NCBI GenBank assembly: GCA_002479245.1
Contig: DLMG01000277.1
Location: forward strand, 1 to 17,698
Length of the DNA: 17,698 bases
DNA from: Verrucomicrobia subdivision 3 bacterium UBA7542
Lineage (GTDB): Bacteria > Verrucomicrobiota > Verrucomicrobiia > Limisphaerales > UBA11358
Direction of reading: 5' to 3'
How positions within the stretch are numbered: the first letter of the stretch is position 1; every line of letters starts with the position of its first letter. A program made the position numbers and the translations under genes. Positions 428 through 17,295 of this stretch are shown in pieces. The notes under the pieces are model-generated. The model did not search any database, was not told the origin of the DNA, and was given only the letters and a program-made list of their open reading frames with translations.

Positions 428-1555
428 ATGAGCCACCGTCTCAAAGCCTTGCTGCCCTTCGCCCTCTTCGCCCTCGCGCTGGTCGCGGTGCAATTCACCC
501 TGCGCGCGACGGGAAGGGAATACTGCCTTACGCAGCTTACCATGTCGCTTTACTACGCCATCGTCGTGATTGGTCTGTGCTTGGTGATGGGTTACGCCGG
601 ACAGGTGTCGCTCGGCCACGGCGCGTTCTTCGCCATCGGCGGTTACACATCCGCGGTGCTGACGACTCATGACTTCTCCCGCGTTAATGCCACCGCCTGG
701 GCCGGCGCGCTCCGTCAGGCGTGCCTGCTGGTGGCCAAGGACGACCTTTACGGCAACCAGATCGTCACCGCCTCCCCGTGGGCCGCCTTCTTGGCGGCCA
801 TGCTCGTGACGTTGGTCATCGCGAGCCTGATCGGCTATCCCGCGCTCCGGCTCAAAGGCCATTACCTCGCCATGGCCACGCTCGGCTTCGGCCTGATCGT
901 TTACAAAACCGTCCTCGGCACCGCCCTCTTCGGCGCGGCGGACGGCATCAACGGCGTGCCGGAATGGAAGCTGGGCTTTGGCCTGACGGTGTCAGGCCGG
1001 AGCGCCCTGCGCGTTGAAAATTACTATGTCGCCGGCGCCTTGGTGCTGGTGCTGCTCGTGCTGTTGCGCAACCTTATCCATTCCCGCGTCGGCCGCGCGT
1101 TGCAGGCCATCCACGACCGCGAGACTGCCGCCGGCGCGATGGGCATCAACACCGCCGCCTACAAACTGCGCGCCTTCGTGTTGAGTGCGCTGCTCGCGGC
1201 AATGGCCGGCGTGTTCTTCACGCATTACACCGGCGGCATCGGGCCGTCGGAAGCCAGCGCGTTCAAGTCAGTGCGCTACGTCGCGTTGGCTGCGTCCGGC
1301 GGCATGGCAAGCCTCTGGGGCGTCACCGGCATGAGCACCCTGTTGAACTACCTGTCGTTCCGCGGCCTGTTCGGCAGTTATGACAACGCCGTGTTCGGTG
1401 TAATTCTCATCACCATTGTTTCGCTCGCGCCGGAAGGTCCGCTCAAGCCGCTGGGGCTGTGGGTCGGGCGGCTGGTAGGGATGCGTTCCACCGCGTCCCA
1501 AACAAAACAAAACAATGGGGACACGGTGGAACGTGTCCCTACCACGGTTATCTGA
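428..1555 (+). CDS. livM: LivM-type branched-chain amino acid ABC permease
   Basis: This 375-residue polytopic inner-membrane protein is the second channel subunit of the importer. Hydrophobic helices begin at residue 8 and recur to about residue 345. LivM hallmarks include GYAGQVSLGHGAFFAIGGY near residues 55-75, LRLKGHYLAMATLGFG near 140-155, and DGINGVPEWKLGFGL after it. The RALQAIHDRETAAGAMGIN segment is the cytoplasmic loop that couples to the ATPases. The ATG at 428 begins just before the first helix and I see no better upstream start. The last 25 or so residues (from about 350) are not family-like: they are encoded by an inverted repeat (1475-1542), so the original stop has probably been replaced. 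The gene ends one base before the livG ATG, indicating translational coupling. Confidence 0.93.
   Translation: MSHRLKALLPFALFALALVAVQFTLRATGREYCLTQLTMSLYYAIVVIGLCLVMGYAGQVSLGHGAFFAIGGYTSAVLTTHDFSRVNATAWAGALRQACLLVAKDDLYGNQIVTASPWAAFLAAMLVTLVIASLIGYPALRLKGHYLAMATLGFGLIVYKTVLGTALFGAADGINGVPEWKLGFGLTVSGRSALRVENYYVAGALVLVLLVLLRNLIHSRVGRALQAIHDRETAAGAMGINTAAYKLRAFVLSALLAAMAGVFFTHYTGGIGPSEASAFKSVRYVALAASGGMASLWGVTGMSTLLNYLSFRGLFGSYDNAVFGVILITIVSLAPEGPLKPLGLWVGRLVGMRSTASQTKQNNGDTVERVPTTVI
1475..1542. repeat. REP-like inverted hairpin pair inside the 3' end of livM (family B)
   Basis: Two units face each other. The left hairpin is GGGATGCG-TTCCAC-CGCGTCCC at 1478-1499 (21 of the 22 bases excluding nothing but one G-T wobble pair). 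The right hairpin is GGGACACG-GTGGAA-CGTGTCCC at 1518-1539 with a perfect 8-bp stem. The arms are reverse complements of each other apart from stem positions 5-6. At position 6 the pair is G-C in one unit and A-T in the other, a compensatory change. An A-rich linker separates them. The unit encodes LivM residues from about 350 to 372. Confidence 0.8.
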
Positions 1556-1556
1556 C

Positions 1557-2432
1557 ATGACGCTGCTTGAAGTAAAACATGTCCGGCGCAGTTTCGGCGG
1601 CCTCGTGGCGGTGAACGGGGTTTCGTTCTCGGTCAACCCGGGCCGGATCAAGGCGGTCATCGGCCCCAACGGCGCGGGCAAGACGACCCTGTTCAACATC
1701 ATCTCCGGCCTGCTCAAGGCCGACGCCGGGCAGGTCACTTTCAAGGACCGCTCCATCACCGGTTTCAAGCCGTATCAAATCGCCCGCGCGGGGATTTCGC
1801 GGACGTTCCAGAATCCCAGCCTGTTCTTCCAAATGAGCGTTCTGGAAAACGTGATGGTGGGTCGGCACCGCCGCTCGGGCCGGGAATTCGCCGCCTGCTG
1901 CCTGCGCCTTCCCGGCCAGCCGAAGGAGGAACGTTCCATCCGTGAAGCCGCGCTGGCGCAACTGGATTACGTCGGCCTCGCTCATCTCGCCGGGTTCCCG
2001 GCCGGCGGTCTCTCTTTCGGGCAGCGCCGTATGGTGGAACTGGCCCGCGCGCTGGCCACCGATCCCGAACTGCTGCTGCTCGATGAGCCCGCCAGCGGAC
2101 TGAACACCCGGGAAAAGGAAAACCTTGGCGCGCTTATCCGCCGCATCCGCGACCGCGGCGTCACCGTGCTCCTGGTCGAGCACGACATGACCCTGGTGAT
2201 GGATTTGTCGGACGACATCCTCGTGCTGCACAACGGCACGATCATCGCCGAAGGTTCGCCGGTAACGATTCAAAGCGATCCGAAAGTCATCAGCACTTAC
2301 CTGGGCGGGGAATTCCGCCCGCCCGAGGAAGTTGAACTGGCCCTGCTGACCGGGGAGCGACCGGACACTGCCCCCGGAGCGCGAGTTGTCCCAACTCGCA
2401 GCAGCCCGGTTGGCGAAGGAGCGGTCCGATGA
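1557..2432 (+). CDS. livG: LivG-type ABC transporter ATP-binding protein
   Basis: This 291-residue ATPase powers the LivH/LivM importer on the cytoplasmic face. It has Walker A GPNGAGKTT (residues 36-44), Q-loop TFQN (83-86), signature LSFGQRR (152-158), Walker B LLLLDEP (172-178) and the H-loop histidine H209 in VEHDM. The long insert between Q-loop and signature is typical of LivG, as is the YLGGEF segment near residue 255. I chose ATG 1557, one base after the livM stop, because the family normally begins MTLLEVKHV-like. An in-frame ATG at 1515 lies inside a repeat and would add 14 unrelated residues. From about residue 274 the tail is repeat-encoded (2376 onwards) and is unlikely to be functional LivG sequence. 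Confidence 0.94.
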   Translation: MTLLEVKHVRRSFGGLVAVNGVSFSVNPGRIKAVIGPNGAGKTTLFNIISGLLKADAGQVTFKDRSITGFKPYQIARAGISRTFQNPSLFFQMSVLENVMVGRHRRSGREFAACCLRLPGQPKEERSIREAALAQLDYVGLAHLAGFPAGGLSFGQRRMVELARALATDPELLLLDEPASGLNTREKENLGALIRRIRDRGVTVLLVEHDMTLVMDLSDDILVLHNGTIIAEGSPVTIQSDPKVISTYLGGEFRPPEEVELALLTGERPDTAPGARVVPTRSSPVGEGAVR

Positions 2433-2492
2433 AAAATATTTACGGCAACAAATGCGTTCGCGGGCGCTGCGGCTTGAGACAAGCCGCGCTCC
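2376..2492. repeat. REP-like inverted hairpin pair across the 3' end of livG and the livG-livF spacer (family C)
   Basis: The left unit is GCGAGTTG-TCC-CAACTCGC at 2381-2399. The right unit is GCGGCTTG-AGA-CAAGCCGC at 2469-2487. Both have perfect 8-bp stems. Over 31 bp the arms (2376-2406 and 2462-2492) are imperfect reverse complements. Stem positions 4 and 5 differ between units (A-T/G-C versus G-C/C-G) yet stay paired. The left unit supplies the last 18 or so codons of livG. The right unit ends 9 bp before the livF start. Confidence 0.82.
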
Positions 2493-2501
2493 GTTCCTGA
2501 A

Positions 2502-3221
2502 ATGTTATTGCAGGTCAAAAATTTGAGATGCAGCTACGGCAGCCTTGAGGTTGTCCACGGCATCAGTCTGCACGTGTGCGCCGGCGAGATCGTCGGCCTG
2601 CTCGGGGCGAACGGCGCGGGCAAATCCTCGCTGCTCAAGTCCATCATCGGCCTGCTGCCGCCGCGGCAGGGCGACATCTTCATTGATGGCCGGCCCACGC
2701 ACGGCCAGCCCGCCTGGCGCAGCATCAGCAATTCCACCGTGCTCGTGCCGGAAGGCAAAATGATTTTTGCCGACATGACCGTGCGCGAAAACCTGCTCAT
2801 CGGCGGCTACCACAACCCCGACCGCAACCTGCAGCTCGACATCGTGCTCGACCGTTTCCCGCGGTTGCGCGAGCGGATTCACCAGTTGGGCGGCACGTTG
2901 TCCGGCGGCGAACAGCAGATGCTGGCGCTGGGCCGCGCGCTAATGGCCCGGCCCAAATTGTTGTTGCTCGACGAACCTTCGCTGGGCCTCGCGCCGCTCA
3001 TGGTCCGGGAGGTGTTCGGCGAAATCCTCAAGATGAAGGACCTCGGCATGACGGTGCTGCTCGTGGAGCAAAACGTCATCGGTACCTTGCAGATCGCCGA
3101 CCGCGCCTATGTGATGGAAACCGGCGAAATCATTTTGGAAGGAGAAGCCGCCGACCTCCTGTACAACCCGGAAATCAAGCGCGCCTACCTCGGCAAAGGC
3201 GGCAAGGAGGTCTGGTTATGA
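2502..3221 (+). CDS. livF: LivF-type ABC transporter ATP-binding protein
   Basis: This 239-residue protein is the second ATPase of the importer and is expected to form a heterodimer with LivG. It shows Walker A GANGAGKSS (residues 35-43), signature LSGGEQQ (133-139) and Walker B LLLLDEP followed by SLGLAP (153 onwards). VEQN stands in place of the H-loop histidine, which is normal for LivF. The ending, NPEIKRAYLG, is the usual LivF C-terminus, and the length matches the family. The start at 2502 is right for the family (MLLQVKNLRCSYG). No strong Shine-Dalgarno sequence precedes it. The gene is in line with livM and livG, separated from livG by a repeat-filled 69-bp spacer. Confidence 0.95.
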   Translation: MLLQVKNLRCSYGSLEVVHGISLHVCAGEIVGLLGANGAGKSSLLKSIIGLLPPRQGDIFIDGRPTHGQPAWRSISNSTVLVPEGKMIFADMTVRENLLIGGYHNPDRNLQLDIVLDRFPRLRERIHQLGGTLSGGEQQMLALGRALMARPKLLLLDEPSLGLAPLMVREVFGEILKMKDLGMTVLLVEQNVIGTLQIADRAYVMETGEIILEGEAADLLYNPEIKRAYLGKGGKEVWL

Positions 3222-3230
3222 GGCGAGGAA

Positions 3231-3461
3231 AACATCCAACAGCCAACATCGAACATCCAACACCCAATGTTCCCACGATGTCCAATTGCCAGCCATTGGA
3301 GGTAGGACGCGTCACTCCGTGCGCGCCGTCGGGGAAAAACCATAAGCGTCGGTTGGAAGTTGCGGCGCGCAGGGGACTGCGCGCCCTACCATCCCAATCA
3401 GGTTCAGCAGCGCAAATCGCAGATTGCAAATTCTCGACTTTCGACTCTCGACCTTCGACTC
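3231..3461. repeat. Repeat-packed livF-paaK spacer: hairpin pair (family D) and heptamer tandem
   Basis: The 289-bp spacer 3222-3510 has no convincing gene. It begins with two copies of AACATCCAAC (3231-3240 and 3252-3261). Next comes an inverted pair, 3301-3329 and 3362-3390: the right unit is a perfect hairpin GGCGCGCAG-GGGA-CTGCGCGCC (3364-3385), and the left is a decayed version with a CTCC loop. Then come four tandem heptamers of the form TCGACYY (3434-3461). The small reading frame starting at 3218 runs entirely through this repeat DNA and is treated as non-coding. Confidence 0.7.
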
Positions 3462-3510
3462 AGATTGCCAGGCCTCTGTTCTTTCGTAATTTCTCAACCC
3501 CATCCTTTTT

Positions 3511-4734
3511 ATGAACGTCTTCGATCGCCGTTACGAAATGATGCCGCGCGCCGAACTGGAACAACTCCAGCTCGAACGCCTGCAGGCCCTCCTCGTCCGC
3601 CTCAAACGCAACGTCCGCCGTGCCCGCGAAAAAATCGGCGACACCCGCGTCGAGTCGCTCGCCGACCTGGCGCGTCTGCCGTTCACCACGCCGGAAGACA
3701 TGGTGGACAGTTTTCCCTACGGCATGTTCGCGCTGCCCATGCGCGAAATCATCCGGCTGCACACCACCGTCGGCCCGCAGGGCAAACCGCTCGTCATCGG
3801 CCACACGCGCAATGACCTGGCCCAGTGGGGCCGGCTTGTCGCCCGCCAGCTCGTGGCCATCGGCGTGACCGCCAACGACGTGGTCCAGATGTGTTTCGGC
3901 GGCGGCGTCTATGGCGCGGCCGGTTACCTCTTTGGCGCGCAGGTCATCGAAGCGTCCGTCATCGCCGAGGATTCCGCCCACGTGGATTATCAGATTGCCA
4001 CGTTGCAAAACTTCCAGCCCACCGTCCTCATCACCACGCCAGGCAACGCCCTTGACCTCATGCAGGTGATGGAACAGCGCCGCTTGGACCCGCAATCACT
4101 CCACATCCGCACCGTCCTGCTCTCGCGCCCGGTGGACCACGAAACCCGCGAACGGCTGGCCGCCGGGTTGTTCGCGAGGGTGCAATGCAACTTCGGTCTT
4201 GGCGAAATCCTCAATCCTGGCCTGTGCGTGGAATGCAGCGCCGGACACTTCCACGTCCATGAAGACCATTTTCTCGCCGAAGTGCAGGACGGTGAACTGG
4301 TGTTGACAACGCTTTGCCGCGAAGCCCTGCCCCTGCTCCGCTATCGCACCCGGGTTCGCTGCGAACTCACCCGCGAGAAATGTTCCTGCGGCCGCAGCGG
4401 CGCCAGAATCGTGCCCGGCGAGCGGCTCGATGGCCGCCTGCGCGTCAACGAAACCCCGCTTTACGAGGGCCAGATTGCCGGAGTCCTCGCCCGGACCAAG
4501 GCCGCCGGGCAGCCCTTCACCTTCACCGTGTCCGAGCGGCGCATTGTGGTTTCTGTTGAAATTTCCGACGACCTGTTCGCCGATGCCGTCGGGCTAATCG
4601 AAGAACTCACGCGCGAAATTGAGTCCGAGTTCCTGGCGCGGCTGGGCATCGAAGCGGACGTGCGCTTCATTTCGCCCCGCTCCCGCGCCGGGGTGGATAC
4701 CGAACTGGATGCCGACAGCAAGACAGAGGATTGA
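3511..4734 (+). CDS. Degenerate phenylacetate-CoA ligase (PaaK) family paralogue
   Basis: This 407-residue protein aligns along its length with the canonical ligase encoded just downstream (shared ESLADLARLPFTT, RLHT, LVLTTLCREALPLLRYRTR and CSCGR segments). Adenylate-forming motifs are altered. The phosphate-binding loop reads TTVGPQGKP (85-93) instead of TSSGTTGKP. YGLSE is FGLGE (228-232). The AMP-ribose aspartate after YRTR is V282. The GRSDDMLIVRG hinge is replaced by GERLDGRLRVN, and the C-terminal EGKAKR lysine motif is missing. Cys and His residues of a possible metal site (C242, H250, C291, C293) are kept. The frame is intact and codon use matches its neighbours, so it looks like a maintained protein rather than a fresh pseudogene. 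It may be a catalytically impaired partner or regulator of the next gene, or a ligase with a shifted function. The ATG at 3511 has no obvious ribosome binding site. Confidence 0.8.
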   Translation: MNVFDRRYEMMPRAELEQLQLERLQALLVRLKRNVRRAREKIGDTRVESLADLARLPFTTPEDMVDSFPYGMFALPMREIIRLHTTVGPQGKPLVIGHTRNDLAQWGRLVARQLVAIGVTANDVVQMCFGGGVYGAAGYLFGAQVIEASVIAEDSAHVDYQIATLQNFQPTVLITTPGNALDLMQVMEQRRLDPQSLHIRTVLLSRPVDHETRERLAAGLFARVQCNFGLGEILNPGLCVECSAGHFHVHEDHFLAEVQDGELVLTTLCREALPLLRYRTRVRCELTREKCSCGRSGARIVPGERLDGRLRVNETPLYEGQIAGVLARTKAAGQPFTFTVSERRIVVSVEISDDLFADAVGLIEELTREIESEFLARLGIEADVRFISPRSRAGVDTELDADSKTED

Positions 4735-4902
4735 TTCGTAATCGTTCTCGTTCTCGTCCTCGTCCTCGGTGCCAGCTCGCGAAGACGCTCGCTCCACCCA
4801 GAATGCAAGCCACATCCCACCCGCCATCGTGCAGTAAAACTTGACGCGCTATTCATTTTGGGGTGGAGTAGTAGGCACAATTATCAAATCAGGCGTTGAG
4901 TC
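4735..4902 (+). other. Spacer between the two PaaK-family genes with a short hexamer tandem
   Basis: This 168-bp spacer begins with an imperfect tandem of GTTCTC/GTCCTC hexamers (about 4743-4767). It then becomes more AT-rich towards the next ATG. No gene, clear hairpin pair or strong promoter is visible. A TTGACG at about 4843 has no convincing -10 partner. Confidence 0.45.
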
Positions 4903-6195
4903 ATGTTTTGGGATCAAAAAATTGAAACGCTTGAGCGCGCCGCGCTGGAGCGGCTGCAGCTTAAACGTTTGCAGGAAACGGTCCGGCGCGTGGCCGCGCA
5001 CGTGCCGTTCTACCGGCAGAAATTCGCCGAACTGGGCGTGAAGCCGGAGGATATCCGGTCGCTCGCCGACCTGCGCCGCCTGCCCTTCACCACCAACGCC
5101 GACTTGCGCGACAACTATCCCACCGGCCTGCTGGCCGTGTCTTACGACGCCACCCTCCGCCTGCACACTTCCAGCGGCACGACCGGCAAACCCAAGGCGC
5201 TGTTTTTCTCGCGGCAGGATGTGGACAACGCCGCCGAACTGTGCGCGCGTTCGTTCGTCATGACTGGCATCACGCAGAAGGACGTGTTCCAGAACATGAT
5301 GACCTACGGCATGTTCACCGGCGCGCTGGTCACCCACTACGGCGCGGAGAAAATCGGCTGCCTCGTCATCCCCGCCGGCCCGGGCAATTCCGAGCGGCAG
5401 TTGATGCTGATGCAGGATTTTCGGACGACGTTCATCCACCTCACGCCCAGCTACGCGCTCTACCTTGCGACCTTTCTCGAAAAACACGGGGTTGACCCGC
5501 GGCGCGATCTCGCGTTGCGCAAGGCGTTCGTGGGCGCCGAAGCTTACACTGAGGAAACCTGTCGCAAAATTGAAGAGGGCCTCGGCCTTGACGTTTACAA
5601 CTCCTACGGCCTTTCGGAAATGAACGGGCCGGGCATCGCATTCGAGTGCGTGCACAAACAGGGCATGCACCTCTGGGAGGACCATTTCCTCCTTGAGATC
5701 ATTGACCCGCAGACCGGCGAACTGCTGCCCGACGGCGAAGCCGGAGAACTGGTGATGACGACGCTCTGCCGCGAAGCCATGCCCCTGCTCCGCTACCGCA
5801 CCCGCGATATCACGTCCATCATCACCAAGCCCTGCTCCTGTGGGCGCACGCATCGCCGCATGAACCGCATCGCCGGCCGTTCGGACGACATGCTCATTGT
5901 GCGCGGCGTGAACATCTACCCGCAGCAGATCGAGCGCGTCCTGATGGCGCAGTCAGGGGTGGGCAGAAATTATCTGATCGCGCTGGAGGGCCTTGACGAG
6001 ATGACGATCAAGGTGGAACTGGCGGAAGCCGGTTTCGAGGGACAGGTGGAGCAGCTCATGAAATTGCAGAACCATCTGACCGAAAAATTACGCGCGGAAA
6101 TCCTCATCAAACCACAGGTCCAGCTCCTGCCGCCCGGTTCGCTGCCGGTGAGTGAAGGCAAGGCCAAACGCGTGATTGACAACCGCAAAATGTAA
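4903..6195 (+). CDS. paaK: Phenylacetate-CoA ligase family protein (AMP-forming)
   Basis: This 430-residue protein has the size and full motif set of PaaK-type aryl-acid CoA ligases, which adenylate an aryl or acyl carboxylate with ATP and transfer it to CoA. Visible motifs are HVPFYR (33-38), TSSGTTGKPK (89-98), YGLSEMNGPG (235-244), YRTRD (298-302), the GRSDDMLIVRG hinge (325-335) and SEGKAKRVID with the likely catalytic K420. C249, H256, C311 and C313 could form a structural metal site. In many bacteria and archaea, PaaK genes sit beside ACT-domain genes, Liv transporters and indolepyruvate ferredoxin oxidoreductase, in amino-acid or aryl-acid catabolism; the first two neighbours are present here. 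The true substrate (phenylacetate, indoleacetate or another acid) is not determined. The start is ATG 4903, with only a weak upstream GGCG. Confidence 0.93.
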   Translation: MFWDQKIETLERAALERLQLKRLQETVRRVAAHVPFYRQKFAELGVKPEDIRSLADLRRLPFTTNADLRDNYPTGLLAVSYDATLRLHTSSGTTGKPKALFFSRQDVDNAAELCARSFVMTGITQKDVFQNMMTYGMFTGALVTHYGAEKIGCLVIPAGPGNSERQLMLMQDFRTTFIHLTPSYALYLATFLEKHGVDPRRDLALRKAFVGAEAYTEETCRKIEEGLGLDVYNSYGLSEMNGPGIAFECVHKQGMHLWEDHFLLEIIDPQTGELLPDGEAGELVMTTLCREAMPLLRYRTRDITSIITKPCSCGRTHRRMNRIAGRSDDMLIVRGVNIYPQQIERVLMAQSGVGRNYLIALEGLDEMTIKVELAEAGFEGQVEQLMKLQNHLTEKLRAEILIKPQVQLLPPGSLPVSEGKAKRVIDNRKM

Positions 6196-6276
6196 AGCAA
6201 CCGGATGAAAAGGAACCACGATCCCAAAATCGCACACGACCGCCTTGAATCACATTGGACGGTGTACAGCGCGATA

Positions 6277-6363
6277 GCGTCTTGGAGTGCGGCAGCCCTC
6301 TGCCGCTTTGGGAACAATCGTAAACCGGGCGAAAGCGCCAGAGGACTGGCGCAGTCCAAAACC
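6277..6363. repeat. REP-like inverted hairpin pair in the paaK-ACT spacer (family E)
   Basis: The left unit is GCGGCAG-CCCT-CTGCCGC (6289-6306). The right unit is GCGCCAG-AGGA-CTGGCGC (6335-6352). Both have perfect 7-bp stems. The 33-bp arms, 6277-6309 and 6331-6363, are imperfect reverse complements. Stem position 4 is G-C in one unit and C-G in the other. The rest of the 243-bp spacer (6196-6438) shows no gene. Confidence 0.82.
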
Positions 6364-6438
6364 GGGCGGCTCTTTTCGTGGTTCACGGAAACGACCAAGG
6401 CGAACCTTCCAGCTTAAATTCCAAGAAAGGAATCTCAA

Positions 6439-6864
6439 ATGAACGACGTCAAACTGGTGGCTGCTTTTGCCGAGAACAAACCCGGGCAGGTCGCCCACTT
6501 CACCAAAATCCTCGCCAGCGCCAACATCAACATCCGCTGGCTCGCCGTGGCCAGCACCGGCCCGTTCGGCGTGATGAAATTCCTCGTCAGCGATCCGGAG
6601 ATGGCCTGCCAGGCCCTCAAACACGAAGGCTTCGTCACCAAACTGGTGGACGCGCTCGCCATTGAAGTCCCGGACAAGCCCGGCGGATTGCATGCCGTGG
6701 CCGATTGTCTGGCCAGCCACAACATCAACCTCGACAACGCCTCCGGTTTCATCACCAACAATCGCGCCATCATGGTCCTCGAAGTCCCCGACGCGGCCAG
6801 GGCGCGCGACGTCCTGCAAAAGCAGGGTTTCCGCGTGTTGACGCAAATGGAACTGCCGGTGTAG
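6439..6864 (+). CDS. Tandem ACT-domain protein
   Basis: This 141-residue soluble protein is made of two ACT domains, roughly residues 4-68 and 73-138. Each opens with the strand-turn motif typical of the fold (NKPGQVAHFTKILA and DKPGGLHAVADCLA), followed by NINIRW or NINLDN. ACT domains bind small ligands, often amino acids, at domain interfaces and regulate enzymes or transport. Stand-alone double-ACT proteins commonly follow PaaK genes, so this one probably senses the amino acid or acid handled by the upstream importer and ligase; that role is inferred. AAAGGAA at 6426-6432 is a good ribosome binding site 6 bp before the ATG, the clearest in this operon. It appears to be the last gene of the operon, since the next gene is convergent. 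Confidence 0.92.
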   Translation: MNDVKLVAAFAENKPGQVAHFTKILASANINIRWLAVASTGPFGVMKFLVSDPEMACQALKHEGFVTKLVDALAIEVPDKPGGLHAVADCLASHNINLDNASGFITNNRAIMVLEVPDAARARDVLQKQGFRVLTQMELPV

Positions 6865-6936
6865 CGGTCGTTCCGCGGCCATTTGAAGTTGGATGTTGAA
6901 TGCCTGCTCGCGCGAAGCGGAGTTCGATGTTAAACC

Positions 6937-7056
6937 GCGTGGCGACCTGTCCATCGAAGCTTTAGCGAAAGTTGGACCTGTCCATCATAGTTCCGCTTTG
7001 CGGGACGACGGTGGAAGCTTTACGCGGTCTTGCCGCGTGGCGAAGCTTTACGCGGC
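6937..7056. repeat. Direct-repeat cluster between convergent ACT and thioesterase genes
   Basis: The convergent spacer contains GACCTGTCCATC at 6944-6955 and 6975-6986. It also has GAAGCTTTACGCGG at 7014-7027 and 7042-7055, with a partial copy GAAGCTTTA at 6956-6964. The last copy overlaps the thioesterase stop codon (TAA on the minus strand, 7048-7050). Confidence 0.65.
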
Positions 7057-7461
7057 GTTCCCCATCAACGCCATAAACCATGCCGGTGGCCGGATTGGTT
7101 TGCCTTGGGTATCGGTGAACGCGTGGATCGTGTAGCCGCGAACAACCGGGCTGCCGGTCTCGTTCCGGGTAATTTCCACGTCGAAACGCAACCTCGCCCG
7201 CCCTTGCAATTCCACGGTTGAAGTGATGCGCAACAGGTCGTCATATCGCGCGCCGCCCTGAAATTCGAGATGCGCCTCCACCAGCGGCAGGAAAACGCCT
7301 TTTTCCTCCAGCTCGGCGTAAGACATCTGCAACCGGTTCCGCATTAATTCCGTCCGCCCGCACTCGAACCATTCCAGCGCGCGCGAATTGTAGAACGTTC
7401 CCATCTGGTCCGTTTCACTGTAACGAACACGCAACTGAAGCACATCTTTGAGTTTGTTCAT
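7048..7461 (-). CDS. Acyl-CoA thioesterase, YbgC/4HBT hotdog family
   Basis: This 137-residue cytoplasmic protein is a single hotdog domain of the 4-hydroxybenzoyl-CoA thioesterase family, which hydrolyses acyl-CoA to free acid and CoA. The N-terminal active-site motif RYSETDQMGTFYNSRALEWF carries the expected aspartate, D18, followed by the helix ECGRTELMR. The central sequence LEFQGGARYDD and the downstream LRFDVEI strand match the fold. Length is usual for YbgC relatives. The stop codon lies in a repeat copy. The gene converges on the ligase operon, so hydrolysis of the CoA thioesters made there is conceivable but unproven. A housekeeping YbgC role is the main alternative. Confidence 0.88.
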   Translation of the reverse strand: MNKLKDVLQLRVRYSETDQMGTFYNSRALEWFECGRTELMRNRLQMSYAELEEKGVFLPLVEAHLEFQGGARYDDLLRITSTVELQGRARLRFDVEITRNETGSPVVRGYTIHAFTDTQGKPIRPPAWFMALMGNAA

Positions 7462-7483
7462 GGCTCTCTACCGGATGCGGCGC

Positions 7484-7596
7484 AAAGTGGGACAGGCATC
7501 CTGCCTGTCGGCCTTGCAGTGGCATTTCCAACGGAGCTTTGCTGATGTTTCACAACCTGTTTCCATAGAGACAGGCTGGAAGCCTGTCCCACCTTT
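7484..7596. repeat. 113-bp element with inverted hairpin ends (family F, copy 1)
   Basis: The left hairpin is GACAGGCA-TCC-TGCCTGTC (7491-7509). The right is GACAGGCT-GGA-AGCCTGTC (7570-7588). Each has a perfect 8-bp stem; the innermost pair is A-T in one and T-A in the other. The outer flanks, AAAGTGG and CCACCTTT, are also complementary. The rightmost 85 bp recur at 10974-11058. A further left-end-like fragment (GCAAAGTGGGAC) lies near 7651. The remaining spacer up to 7737 holds nothing recognisable. Confidence 0.82.
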
Positions 7597-10639: not shown

Positions 10640-10973
10640 AATTGAATTGGGAGAATTGGTTGTCATCAATTTCGTTCTGGATCACGTTTTAGATTCTATC
10701 TTTCATTTGCAGCTTCATAATAACACAACAATGTATTTTCATCGTTATCACTTTTCAACTCTGGTTTATTGCCCAAATAAATGCGAAAAGCTCAAGGTTT
10801 ACATGGATTATGTTGTGTATTGTTCGAAACATGACAGAGGCAAGATTGCGCGTCTTGTCGCAATCCATCTGCTCGTTTCATCAAAATGCCTAGCCGAAAA
10901 ATTTAATCGTTACCGACATTTCGTGTCAGCACTTTTCCACAGGCTCGCGCTGGATTCATATTGTGTCAATTCC
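10640..10973. other. AT-rich region upstream of the binding-protein gene
   Basis: These 334 bp are clearly AT-richer than the surroundings. They contain no convincing gene: a 158-codon plus-strand frame starting at 10509 is mostly antisense to the lipoprotein gene and has no recognisable features. A small dyad, ATTGCG at 10845-10850 and CGCAAT at 10859-10864, could be a regulator site. The region should contain the lipoprotein promoter, which I could not place with confidence. Confidence 0.45.
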
Positions 10974-11058
10974 GCCTTGCGGTGACATTTTCAAAAGGGC
11001 TTTGCCGATGTTCCACAACCCGTTTCCACAGAGACAGGCCGGAAGCCTGTCCCACCTT
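10974..11058. repeat. Partial second copy of the family F element (right end)
   Basis: This 85-bp stretch matches 7511-7595 without gaps over its length, with a modest number of substitutions. It keeps the right hairpin (GACAGGCC-GGA-AGCCTGTC at 11033-11051, with one imperfect pair) but lacks the left hairpin present in copy 1. Its edge overlaps the first two bases of the reductase stop codon at 11057-11059. Confidence 0.8.
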
Positions 11059-15287: not shown

Positions 15288-15303
15288 TGCGTGGCGAGCT
15301 TGG

Positions 15304-15433
15304 CGCATTTGACGGGCAAAGGCAAAACCAAAGTCGAGAGTCGAAGGCCTACAAAACTTTGTCCCACGTGGGACAAAGTTTTGTAAACAGCTTGTAGCTG
15401 AATAACTTGCTCTAACGCGATTTATTTTATCCG
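15304..15433. repeat. 130-bp element with a 36-bp palindrome, copy 1
   Basis: This sequence recurs at 17167-17295 in the same orientation, with about nine substitutions and one single-base indel. Its centre is a perfect palindrome (15350-15385). To the right is the small dyad CAGCT-TGT-AGCTG. It sits in the spacer between the ClpP-like gene and the convergent membrane hydrolase gene. Confidence 0.9.
15350..15385. terminator. Perfect 36-bp palindrome, possible bidirectional terminator (copy 1)
   Basis: The half-site is TACAAAACTTTGTCCCAC, followed by its exact reverse complement. A GC core (GTCCC/GGGAC) flanked by A-rich and T-rich arms, between two convergent genes, would suit a terminator acting both ways. 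A protein-binding or recombination site is the alternative. Confidence 0.45.
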
Positions 15434-17129: not shown

Positions 17130-17166
17130 TCCATGCCCTCAACGCAACATCGCGGCGAATCCCTGC

Positions 17167-17295
17167 CGCATTTGAGGGGCGAAGGCAGAACCAAAGTCGA
17201 GAGTTAAAGGACTACAAAACTTTGTCCCACGTGGGACAAAGTTTTGTAAACAGCTTGTAGCTGAACAACTTGCTTTAAGGCGATTTATTTTACCG
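17167..17295. repeat. 130-bp element with a 36-bp palindrome, copy 2 (129 bp)
   Basis: This is the second copy of 15304-15433. The palindrome (17213-17248) is identical in both copies and undamaged. The substitutions are all outside it. Here it lies downstream of the M28 gene. Confidence 0.9.

Follow-up and report, generated by a model that had tools for sequence, protein, structure and literature searches.

Why should hairpins at the gene ends and in the spacers of one bacterial contig differ in the sequence of their stems while staying paired? The question is raised by a window of 17,698 nucleotides, the whole stretch of DNA analysed here, which is one contig (DLMG01000277.1) of Verrucomicrobia subdivision 3 bacterium UBA7542 (GCA_002479245.1, an assembly of 4.42 Mb in 428 contigs, 70% complete). 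A sequence-only reading had described five pairs of inverted hairpins in it, families B to F, and we located all five: B at 1475-1542, C at 2376-2492, D at 3302-3389, E at 6284-6357 and F at 7487-7592, with the stem differences as described. We put at about 90% the probability that each pair is a REPIN, namely two inverted repetitive extragenic palindromes (REPs) whose tags point outward and which together, as a non-autonomous mobile element, are copied by a REP-associated tyrosine transposase (RAYT) of the Y1/HUH type. Outward tags, stems that covary in B, C, E and F, copies across the genome, and REPs of family C and of F type at RAYT genes carry this reading.

Each unit is a stem closed by a short loop, and an outer tag of four nucleotides, absent from the sequence-only account, adjoins it: GTAG in B and D, GTGG in F, and GGAG in C and E. 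With the family letter in place of the stem, the units read GTAG-B-TTCCAC, GGAGC-C-TCY, GTAG-D-TCC(C), GGAGT-E-YCCT and GTGG-F-TCC. The 5' REP of B (1475-1499, plus strand) has its tag at 1475-1478 and the stem GGGATGCG/CGCGTCCC, whose first G is the last G of the tag, around the loop TTCCAC; its 3' REP (1518-1542, minus strand) shows CTAC at 1539-1542, which is GTAG on the minus strand, and again TTCCAC on that strand. In C, the 5' REP (2376-2399, plus) runs from the tag through C, the stem GCGAGTTG/CAACTCGC and the loop TCC to a tail AGC, and the 3' REP (2469-2492, minus) has the same tag, C, the stem GCGGCTTG/CAAGCCGC and the loop TCT. Family E pairs a plus-strand REP at 6284-6306 (GGAG, T, stem GCGGCAG/CTGCCGC, loop CCCT) with a minus-strand REP at 6335-6357 (T, stem GCGCCAG/CTGGCGC, loop TCCT) whose tag is changed to GGAC, a form found in 4 of the 13 E units collected, this one included. 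F consists of GTGG, GACAGGCA/TGCCTGTC and TCC at 7487-7509 (plus), and of GTGG, GACAGGCT/AGCCTGTC and TCC at 7570-7592 (minus). Family D had been said to fit too; its loops do (TCC within CTCCGT in the 5' unit, TCCC in the 3' unit), and the 3' REP (3364-3389, minus) joins GTAG to the stem GGCGCGCAG/CTGCGCGCC, but the GTAG-tagged 5' REP (3302-3327, plus), GACGCGtCAC-TCC-GTGCGCGCC, is not a clean hairpin, with one mismatch and one bulged T by eye. Cleaner relatives of D appear in the tag scan of the genome.

Between the 5' and 3' stems, the differences fall at positions 4 and 5 in C (GCGAGTTG/GCGGCTTG), position 4 in E (GCGGCAG/GCGCCAG), position 8 in F (GACAGGCA/GACAGGCT) and position 6 in B (GGGATGCG/GGGACACG); position 5 of B also differs, T-G becoming C-G, so that the 5' unit of B holds a T-G pair. 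The foot typical of REPs, GT[AG]G, is present in B, D and F, and stems of 7-9 bp with loops of 3-6 nt agree with a palindromic stem-loop of 20-40 nt, that of the D 5' unit being imperfect. All five pairs are inverted doublets with outward tags by eye, and two (C and F) are so under strict rules (stem of 7-9 bp, tag G[TG][AG]G); B, D and E each have one unit that falls outside these rules. A second F element at 10971-11058 (plus) is 86% identical over 88 bp to 7508-7595, that is, to the spacer and 3' REP (here 11033-11055); neither the F pattern nor the tag scan found a 5' REP for it.

This arrangement resembles the REPINs of Pseudomonas fluorescens SBW25, in which two inverted REPs and their spacer form the copied unit and are associated with a RAYT, although the hairpin described there joins the two halves of the doublet, whereas here covariation was counted within each REP stem (PMC3116915). 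Comparable as well are the GTAG-tagged REPs of PMC3733652, including GTAG-20 of Opitutus terrae (Verrucomicrobia), mostly GTGG: they share the tag, a stem mostly of 6-9 bp, a short loop, head-to-head dimers, sub-families with alternative complementary stem residues, and intragenic copies in repair genes. The tags reported in the available text of that paper are GT[AG]G-like, with the degenerate forms GYAG, GYRG, GTRG, GTMG and GTGG and without the GGAG of our C and E, and the same text describes no TCC-type loop common to several families. GGAG at the start of a word occurs 0 times in the available text of PMC2817692, PMC3733652, PMC3116915 and PMC6006769, a count whose scope is running text and leaves longer letter strings, figures and supplements outside.

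How far do such units exceed chance? Under the strict rules the window holds 9 tagged hairpins, 8 of them with a pyrimidine loop, compared with means of 0.7 (maximum 4) and 0.1 (maximum 2) in 200 first-order Markov versions of the window, which together contained 0 outward pairs of pyrimidine-loop units. Beyond the window we used a content-blind sample, made up of contigs 1 to 80 of the assembly (702,342 bp including 14,495 N). Its pairs mostly share one orientation: among 44 neighbouring tagged pairs within 160 nt, 34 are outward, 5 inward and 5 tandem, and the 23 outward pyrimidine-loop pairs have spacers of 7-28 or 60-74 nt. Hairpins of at least 7 bp in the sample carried the loops TCC (27), TCT (17), TTCC (14), TCCT (10) and TCCC (10), against 2, 3, 1, 0 and 0 in one simulated sequence of equal length. 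In sample and window together, G[TG][AG]G stands before 162 hairpins, against 71, 92 and 64 for three control tags, and before 90 with a pyrimidine-core loop, against 5, 7 and 11. Other loops on tagged hairpins, nearly all behind GTAG, were GTGA (9), GTCA (5), GGCA (3), GTTA (2) and GGGA (2). By eye, the stems of these hairpins in the own-genome sample also vary with pairing kept, and no RAYT is assigned to them.

Copies were then counted in a search set of 763,173 bp (about 0.76 Mb) of the same genome, of which about 43 kb come from loci chosen because they carry a Y1 gene or an F copy. Eight tag-plus-loop patterns with unconstrained arms, covering the window families with variants and one other family, matched 350 times, with pairing at all or all but one positions in 100; reversed control patterns matched 180 times, with such pairing in 2. 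Each family pattern has 5 to 13 units in the 702,342-bp sample, which extrapolates to roughly 30-80 per genome, and the exact F pattern has 13 units in the whole assembly.

The sequence-only reading had proposed that compensatory changes keep the hairpins of B, C, E and F folded, and had set genome-wide covariation as the test. Copies in the search set were gathered by tag, part of the left arm and loop, with the right arm free, and were then aligned and counted; the D pattern caught 1 unit, and the covariation analysis covers B, C, E and F. Chance matches included, 86% (C), 89% (F), 93% (E) and 92% (B) of alignment cells are paired, and half-changed pairs are few. The covariation scores (C 0.48, F 0.42, E 0.36, B 0.44) were equalled by 0 of 500 shuffles in each family, and slid partners scored 0.01-0.12, with 0.26 for one slide of B. 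A tree-aware null, in which branch changes were re-dealt to random columns in 1000 runs after removal of three chance-like rows each from C and F, never reached the summed covariation in any of the four families. The folded hairpin is thus kept through compensatory changes beyond what shuffles, slid partners or shared descent give. Per-pair values rest on few events, the distinct rows numbering 8 (C), 17 (F), 12 (E) and 7 (B): expectation values below 0.05 were obtained for position 4 of C (0.015) and for positions 4 (0.001) and 6 (0.006) of E, and no tree-aware null value was as high as those of position 5 of C and column 11 of B. Among the pairs named beforehand, C positions 4 and 5 and E position 4 are significant alone, while F position 8 (0.063) and B position 6 (0.12) are not. 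The count of pairs with double changes was reached by 10 of 500 shuffles in C and 3 of 500 in F, and the further pair types of F by 0 of 500. At position 8 of F, 7 of 8 GACAGGC-like pairs carry A-T in the left unit and T-A in the right one, five of these loci having been fetched through the exact F pattern; since the difference recurs in this way, it is mostly one old change copied along with the element and not a set of independent events. A doublet inherited whole favours the REPIN as the moving unit and disfavours counting each copy as a new event.

What kind of recognition would leave such a pattern? We know of no biochemistry for the REP families of the window. Each REP would fold when its strand is single, at a replication fork or in a transcription bubble; a RAYT would read the 4-nt tag next to the hairpin foot together with unpaired loop bases, would require an intact helix and barely its sequence, and would cut near the tag and move the doublet. 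Because such an enzyme would need the helix and hardly its sequence, stems may drift if both arms change together, while the protein would hold tag and loop in place. We infer single-strand recognition, cleavage and copying from published RAYT biochemistry: in two group 3 RAYTs, activity requires loop bases and pairing and is harmed by a mismatch in the stem, most of whose bases may vary, and the tag contributes to the choice of cut (PMC8266576). Those RAYT/REP pairs, of Stenotrophomonas and Marinomonas, are like ours in their perfect short palindromes, essential loop base and mostly free stem, and differ in their loops and in their GTAG tags (PMC8266576). Varying but paired stems with a fixed tag and loop are most likely the trace to be expected of a loop-reading, pairing-dependent enzyme.

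Which RAYTs lie beside these families? The assembly contains 12 Y1_Tnp matches, and tagged or similar hairpins flank six of them (L005-L010). Family C REPs stand on either side of the RAYT gene L005 (contig C327), as GGAGC-GCGAGTTG-TCC with GCGGATTG and GCGGTTTG variants, including a unit identical to the C 5' REP of the window. L005 scores 80.8 bits with the NCBIfam equivalog REP_Tyr_transpos (NF047646, cut-off 80) and also passes Pfam Y1_Tnp; the NCBIfam cut-off is likewise reached by L007 (90.0), L107 (81.0) and L112 (90.7). When 152 Y1/RAYT loci, some present twice, were scanned with the family patterns, the C pattern occurred only at L005 (the same locus as L106) and L121, whose RAYTs are sisters in the tree (support 100/98). 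The L008 RAYT is flanked by F-type REPs (GTGG, CACAGRCC or CACAGGTC, TCC), L007 by GTAG-CGCACGCT-TCC, and L010 shares GTAG-CGCAGACA-TTCY with its relative L126. These searches were limited to the 70%-complete assembly and the fetched loci. The tag-based scan saw no tagged flanking hairpin at L107 and L108, and it overlooked several RAYT flanks where the stems are shorter or the feet different; for these a second listing gave GGAA, [AC]GTG and GTAT.

Both tag and loop follow the RAYT lineage. The tree comprised 33 RAYTs, with L108 and L135 excluded as the motif search gave no RAYT frame, and foot labels were set by hand before it was built. In clade I (18 rows), all 16 rows with an identified foot have GGAG or GGAA, clade II (9 rows) has GTAG in 7, GGAG in 1 and GTAT in 1, and clade III (6 rows) has GTGG, GTAG or [AC]GTG; the accompanying Fisher value of 5.7e-8 treats related RAYTs as independent and is a guide only. 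GGAG is not confined to clade I, being found also at L124 (clade II) and at the hsdR-borne RAYTs L218 and L223. Among the best 80 of 549 confirmed named clade I loci, a recurring tagged hairpin accompanies 50 (44 GGAG, 5 GGGG, 1 GTGG) and none was found at 30. Those named relatives that are most identical to the L005 RAYT belong mostly to Pedosphaera, Limisphaerales and Verrucomicrobia subdivision 3 metagenome-assembled genomes, and clade I loci reach beyond Verrucomicrobia to Chloroflexus islandicus and two Acidobacteria (GGAG) and Thiohalocapsa halophila (GGGG). Loops vary by RAYT (TCC, TGT, ATT, TCCC, GCCT, TTCA and others): where stems differ, two hairpins agree in the first two loop bases in 62% of 329 pairs within a locus and in the whole loop in 27%, against 17% and 3.8% of 27,618 pairs between loci. 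Since agreement is higher within than between RAYT loci, the families are probably served by one protein superfamily with several RAYT paralogues. Natural sequence fits the published rule of a loop that is read and a stem that is paired, within single families and across RAYT lineages, which makes ready-made natural variants available for tests of recognition; GGAG, the usual tag of one RAYT clade, offers a natural guide-sequence variant for the published cleavage-site model.

These lineage patterns bear on the claim that one protein recognizes all families through a common TCC loop. TCC-like loops do occur in all five window pairs, and they form the majority loop at 26 of the 53 clade I loci, among the 80, that have at least two GGAG-tagged hairpins, but another loop prevails at the other 27, identified RAYTs are flanked by their own families, the tags differ (GTAG, GTGG, GGAG), and tagged hairpins with GTGA, GTCA and GGCA loops coexist in the genome. 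In the form proposed, the single loop rule finds no support, and a single protein for all families, a very improbable reading, was dropped. As for the claim that covariation implies selection on the hairpin, the stems do covary. Covariation by itself is no proof of selection, however, because template switching in imperfect palindromes, which copies one arm onto the other, can yield a double change in one mutational step, as is known for quasi-palindromes. Mostly paired alignment cells and few half-changed pairs are what such switching would produce; it leaves unexplained why tag and loop are conserved, why 34 of 44 pairs face outward, and why REP and RAYT lineages match. We regard it as an unlikely source of the pattern on its own, while it may act together with copying of REPINs by RAYTs and add to the covariation.

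It is improbable, too, that the hairpins are kept for a task in RNA, as terminators or intergenic mRNA stabilizers, with the RAYT link secondary. Such functions have been hypothesized for REPs (PMC3733652), and B, C, D and E lie at gene ends and in spacers of a co-directional run (428-6864), with F between two minus-strand genes. Against this, an Rfam scan of the window gave 0 matches at the gathering threshold, related REPs occur within coding frames and around RAYT genes, and the different families in neighbouring spacers suggest separate insertions. We also know of no RNA role for a tag outside the stem, which counts against such a task. Miniature inverted-repeat transposable elements of a DDE transposase with terminal inverted repeats would likewise give multicopy inverted pairs with a spacer, yet each end here is itself a tagged hairpin and the transposases flanked by these repeats are of the HUH/Y1 type; this hardly credible candidate was dropped on those grounds.

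Several results weigh against REPINs copied by RAYTs. Families C and E lack the GT[AG]G tag. The other six Y1 genes of the assembly (L001-L004, L011 and L012) showed no flanking tagged hairpins, save one chance-like GGAG/GGGG hairpin at L003. At the 152 loci there is no B unit, and only single stray units of D (L116, L125, L237) and E (L109, L147, L179), so that no RAYT is assigned to B, D or E; the F pattern also occurs at L129/L227, L217 and L244, and the flanks of L008 are CACAG-stemmed, whereas the window F is GACAGGC. L010 (78.9) and the RAYTs inside other genes (57.7-76.8) score below the NCBIfam cut-off of 80. In the tree-aware test F has no single pair with an expectation value below 0.05. 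Among 500 shuffles, the count of pairs with double changes was reached by 354 for E and 61 for B, and that of further pair types by 190 for C, 81 for E and 42 for B. There is also no sign here of present-day movement of the window copies.

Some RAYT relatives lie in frame inside other genes. L008 (own contig C272) sits within an uninterrupted frame of 1022 codons with YoaA/DinG helicase on both sides, and similar cases are L009 (own contig C411), L129, L131, L133, L134 and most of L216-L245, many with flanking REPs; L238, L240 and L242 are examples of stand-alone RAYTs among the last group. We call these genes RAYT-like, as L008, L009, L129, L131 and L133 score 57.7-73.0 with NF047646, below 80, and above the cut-off of Pfam Y1_Tnp. 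Across the order the hosts are yoaA/dinG, priA, dnaE, clpB, hsdR, an SNF2 helicase and other housekeeping genes: priA (L009, L129), dnaE (L131), clpB (L133) and hsdR (L218, L223) exceed their NCBIfam cut-offs, while yoaA (L008, L217, L219, L226) and SNF2-type helicases (L222, L225) fall below them, the loci being partial. The RAYT part of L008 has a match at E<=1e-15 in 118 of 293 genomes of the order, and open frames of 646-1564 codons contain 25 of the 30 best matches, most weaker listed matches lying in ordinary frames of about 200-400. Two protein searches returned 973 and 655 proteins at E<=1e-10, of which 120 each were listed; they admitted 0.55-1.75 times the fused query length and excluded stand-alone RAYTs by design, so the counts are not proportions. 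Among the matches listed, names and Pfam sets add RecG, carbamoyl-phosphate synthase (carB) and others as hosts. PNHxH is present in 228 of 228 listed intragenic relatives, with a Y..NP-type motif (a loose pattern) 45-95 residues downstream in 226, and 192 of the 228 have more than 250 residues before and more than 200 after the HUH motif. Two listed clusters (P0163 and P0144) are on contigs of 2.6 and 7.2 Mb, which argues against short-contig chimeras at least for those two.

In yoaA the insert lies in a length-variable linker after SATLAT. The own-genome linker holds a full RAYT with GTGG REPs (L246 637-1560), while that of the closest relative found (G031), 95% identical over the following 222 residues, holds only an in-frame F-like REPIN with GTAG-GACAGGCG-TCG at both ends (L247 2110-2268); at the 29 loci where the linker was read, these 2 have tagged REPs and 27 do not. 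The RAYTs in yoaA do not form one clade, several forks being weakly supported, which fits repeated arrival of RAYTs at one tolerant site. In-frame REP DNA is also tolerated in tnpA-REP and other genes, where it is thought to lie in flexible linkers or loops; unlike those cases, the genes here are RAYT-like genes with REPs in frame inside unrelated housekeeping genes (PMC6006769). Some source annotations already name the fusion (e.g. 'Rad3-related DNA helicase/REP element-mobilizing transposase RayT'), and our literature searches found no description of in-frame RAYT genes among the matches listed. We lean towards the view that a RAYT-like HUH lineage lives in frame inside housekeeping genes, gene and REPs inserting into tolerant linkers (yoaA, priA, dnaE, clpB, recG, hsdR, carB and others) with the frame unbroken, and that a REPIN of the same type can take the same spot. 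If true, this would be an intein-like location without splicing, and RAYT genes would move as units with their REPs; the intragenic RAYTs are relevant to the question of whether RAYT genes move at all, evidence for which is lacking according to PMC8266576. A fused HUH domain might, as a further step, act from within helicases or polymerases at replication forks, the place where its single-stranded substrate would appear.

By Pfam, the co-directional run of the window starts with a branched-chain amino acid permease (428-1555) and includes an AMP-binding pair (3511-6195), the first member of which matches only below cut-off; other window genes encode two ABC ATPases, an ACT protein, a thioesterase, PspC and PadR. 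Pair B sits inside the 3' end of the permease frame and contributes codons close to its C-terminal end; the start listed first for the next frame (1515) falls inside B. The C 5' unit lies inside the 3' end of that next frame, and the C 3' unit, D and E lie in spacers of the run. An inverted pair, CCCTCTCCCCCGGGAGAGGG / CTCCCCCTCTCCCCGGGGGTGAGGG, occupies 205-405 in the spacer before the permease gene and is perhaps the family A of the first description. A direct repeat of 129 bp, 92% identical between 15301-15429 and 17164-17292, carries a perfect 36-bp palindrome, TACAAAACTTTGTCCCACGTGGGACAAAGTTTTGTA, and looks like another repeat family.

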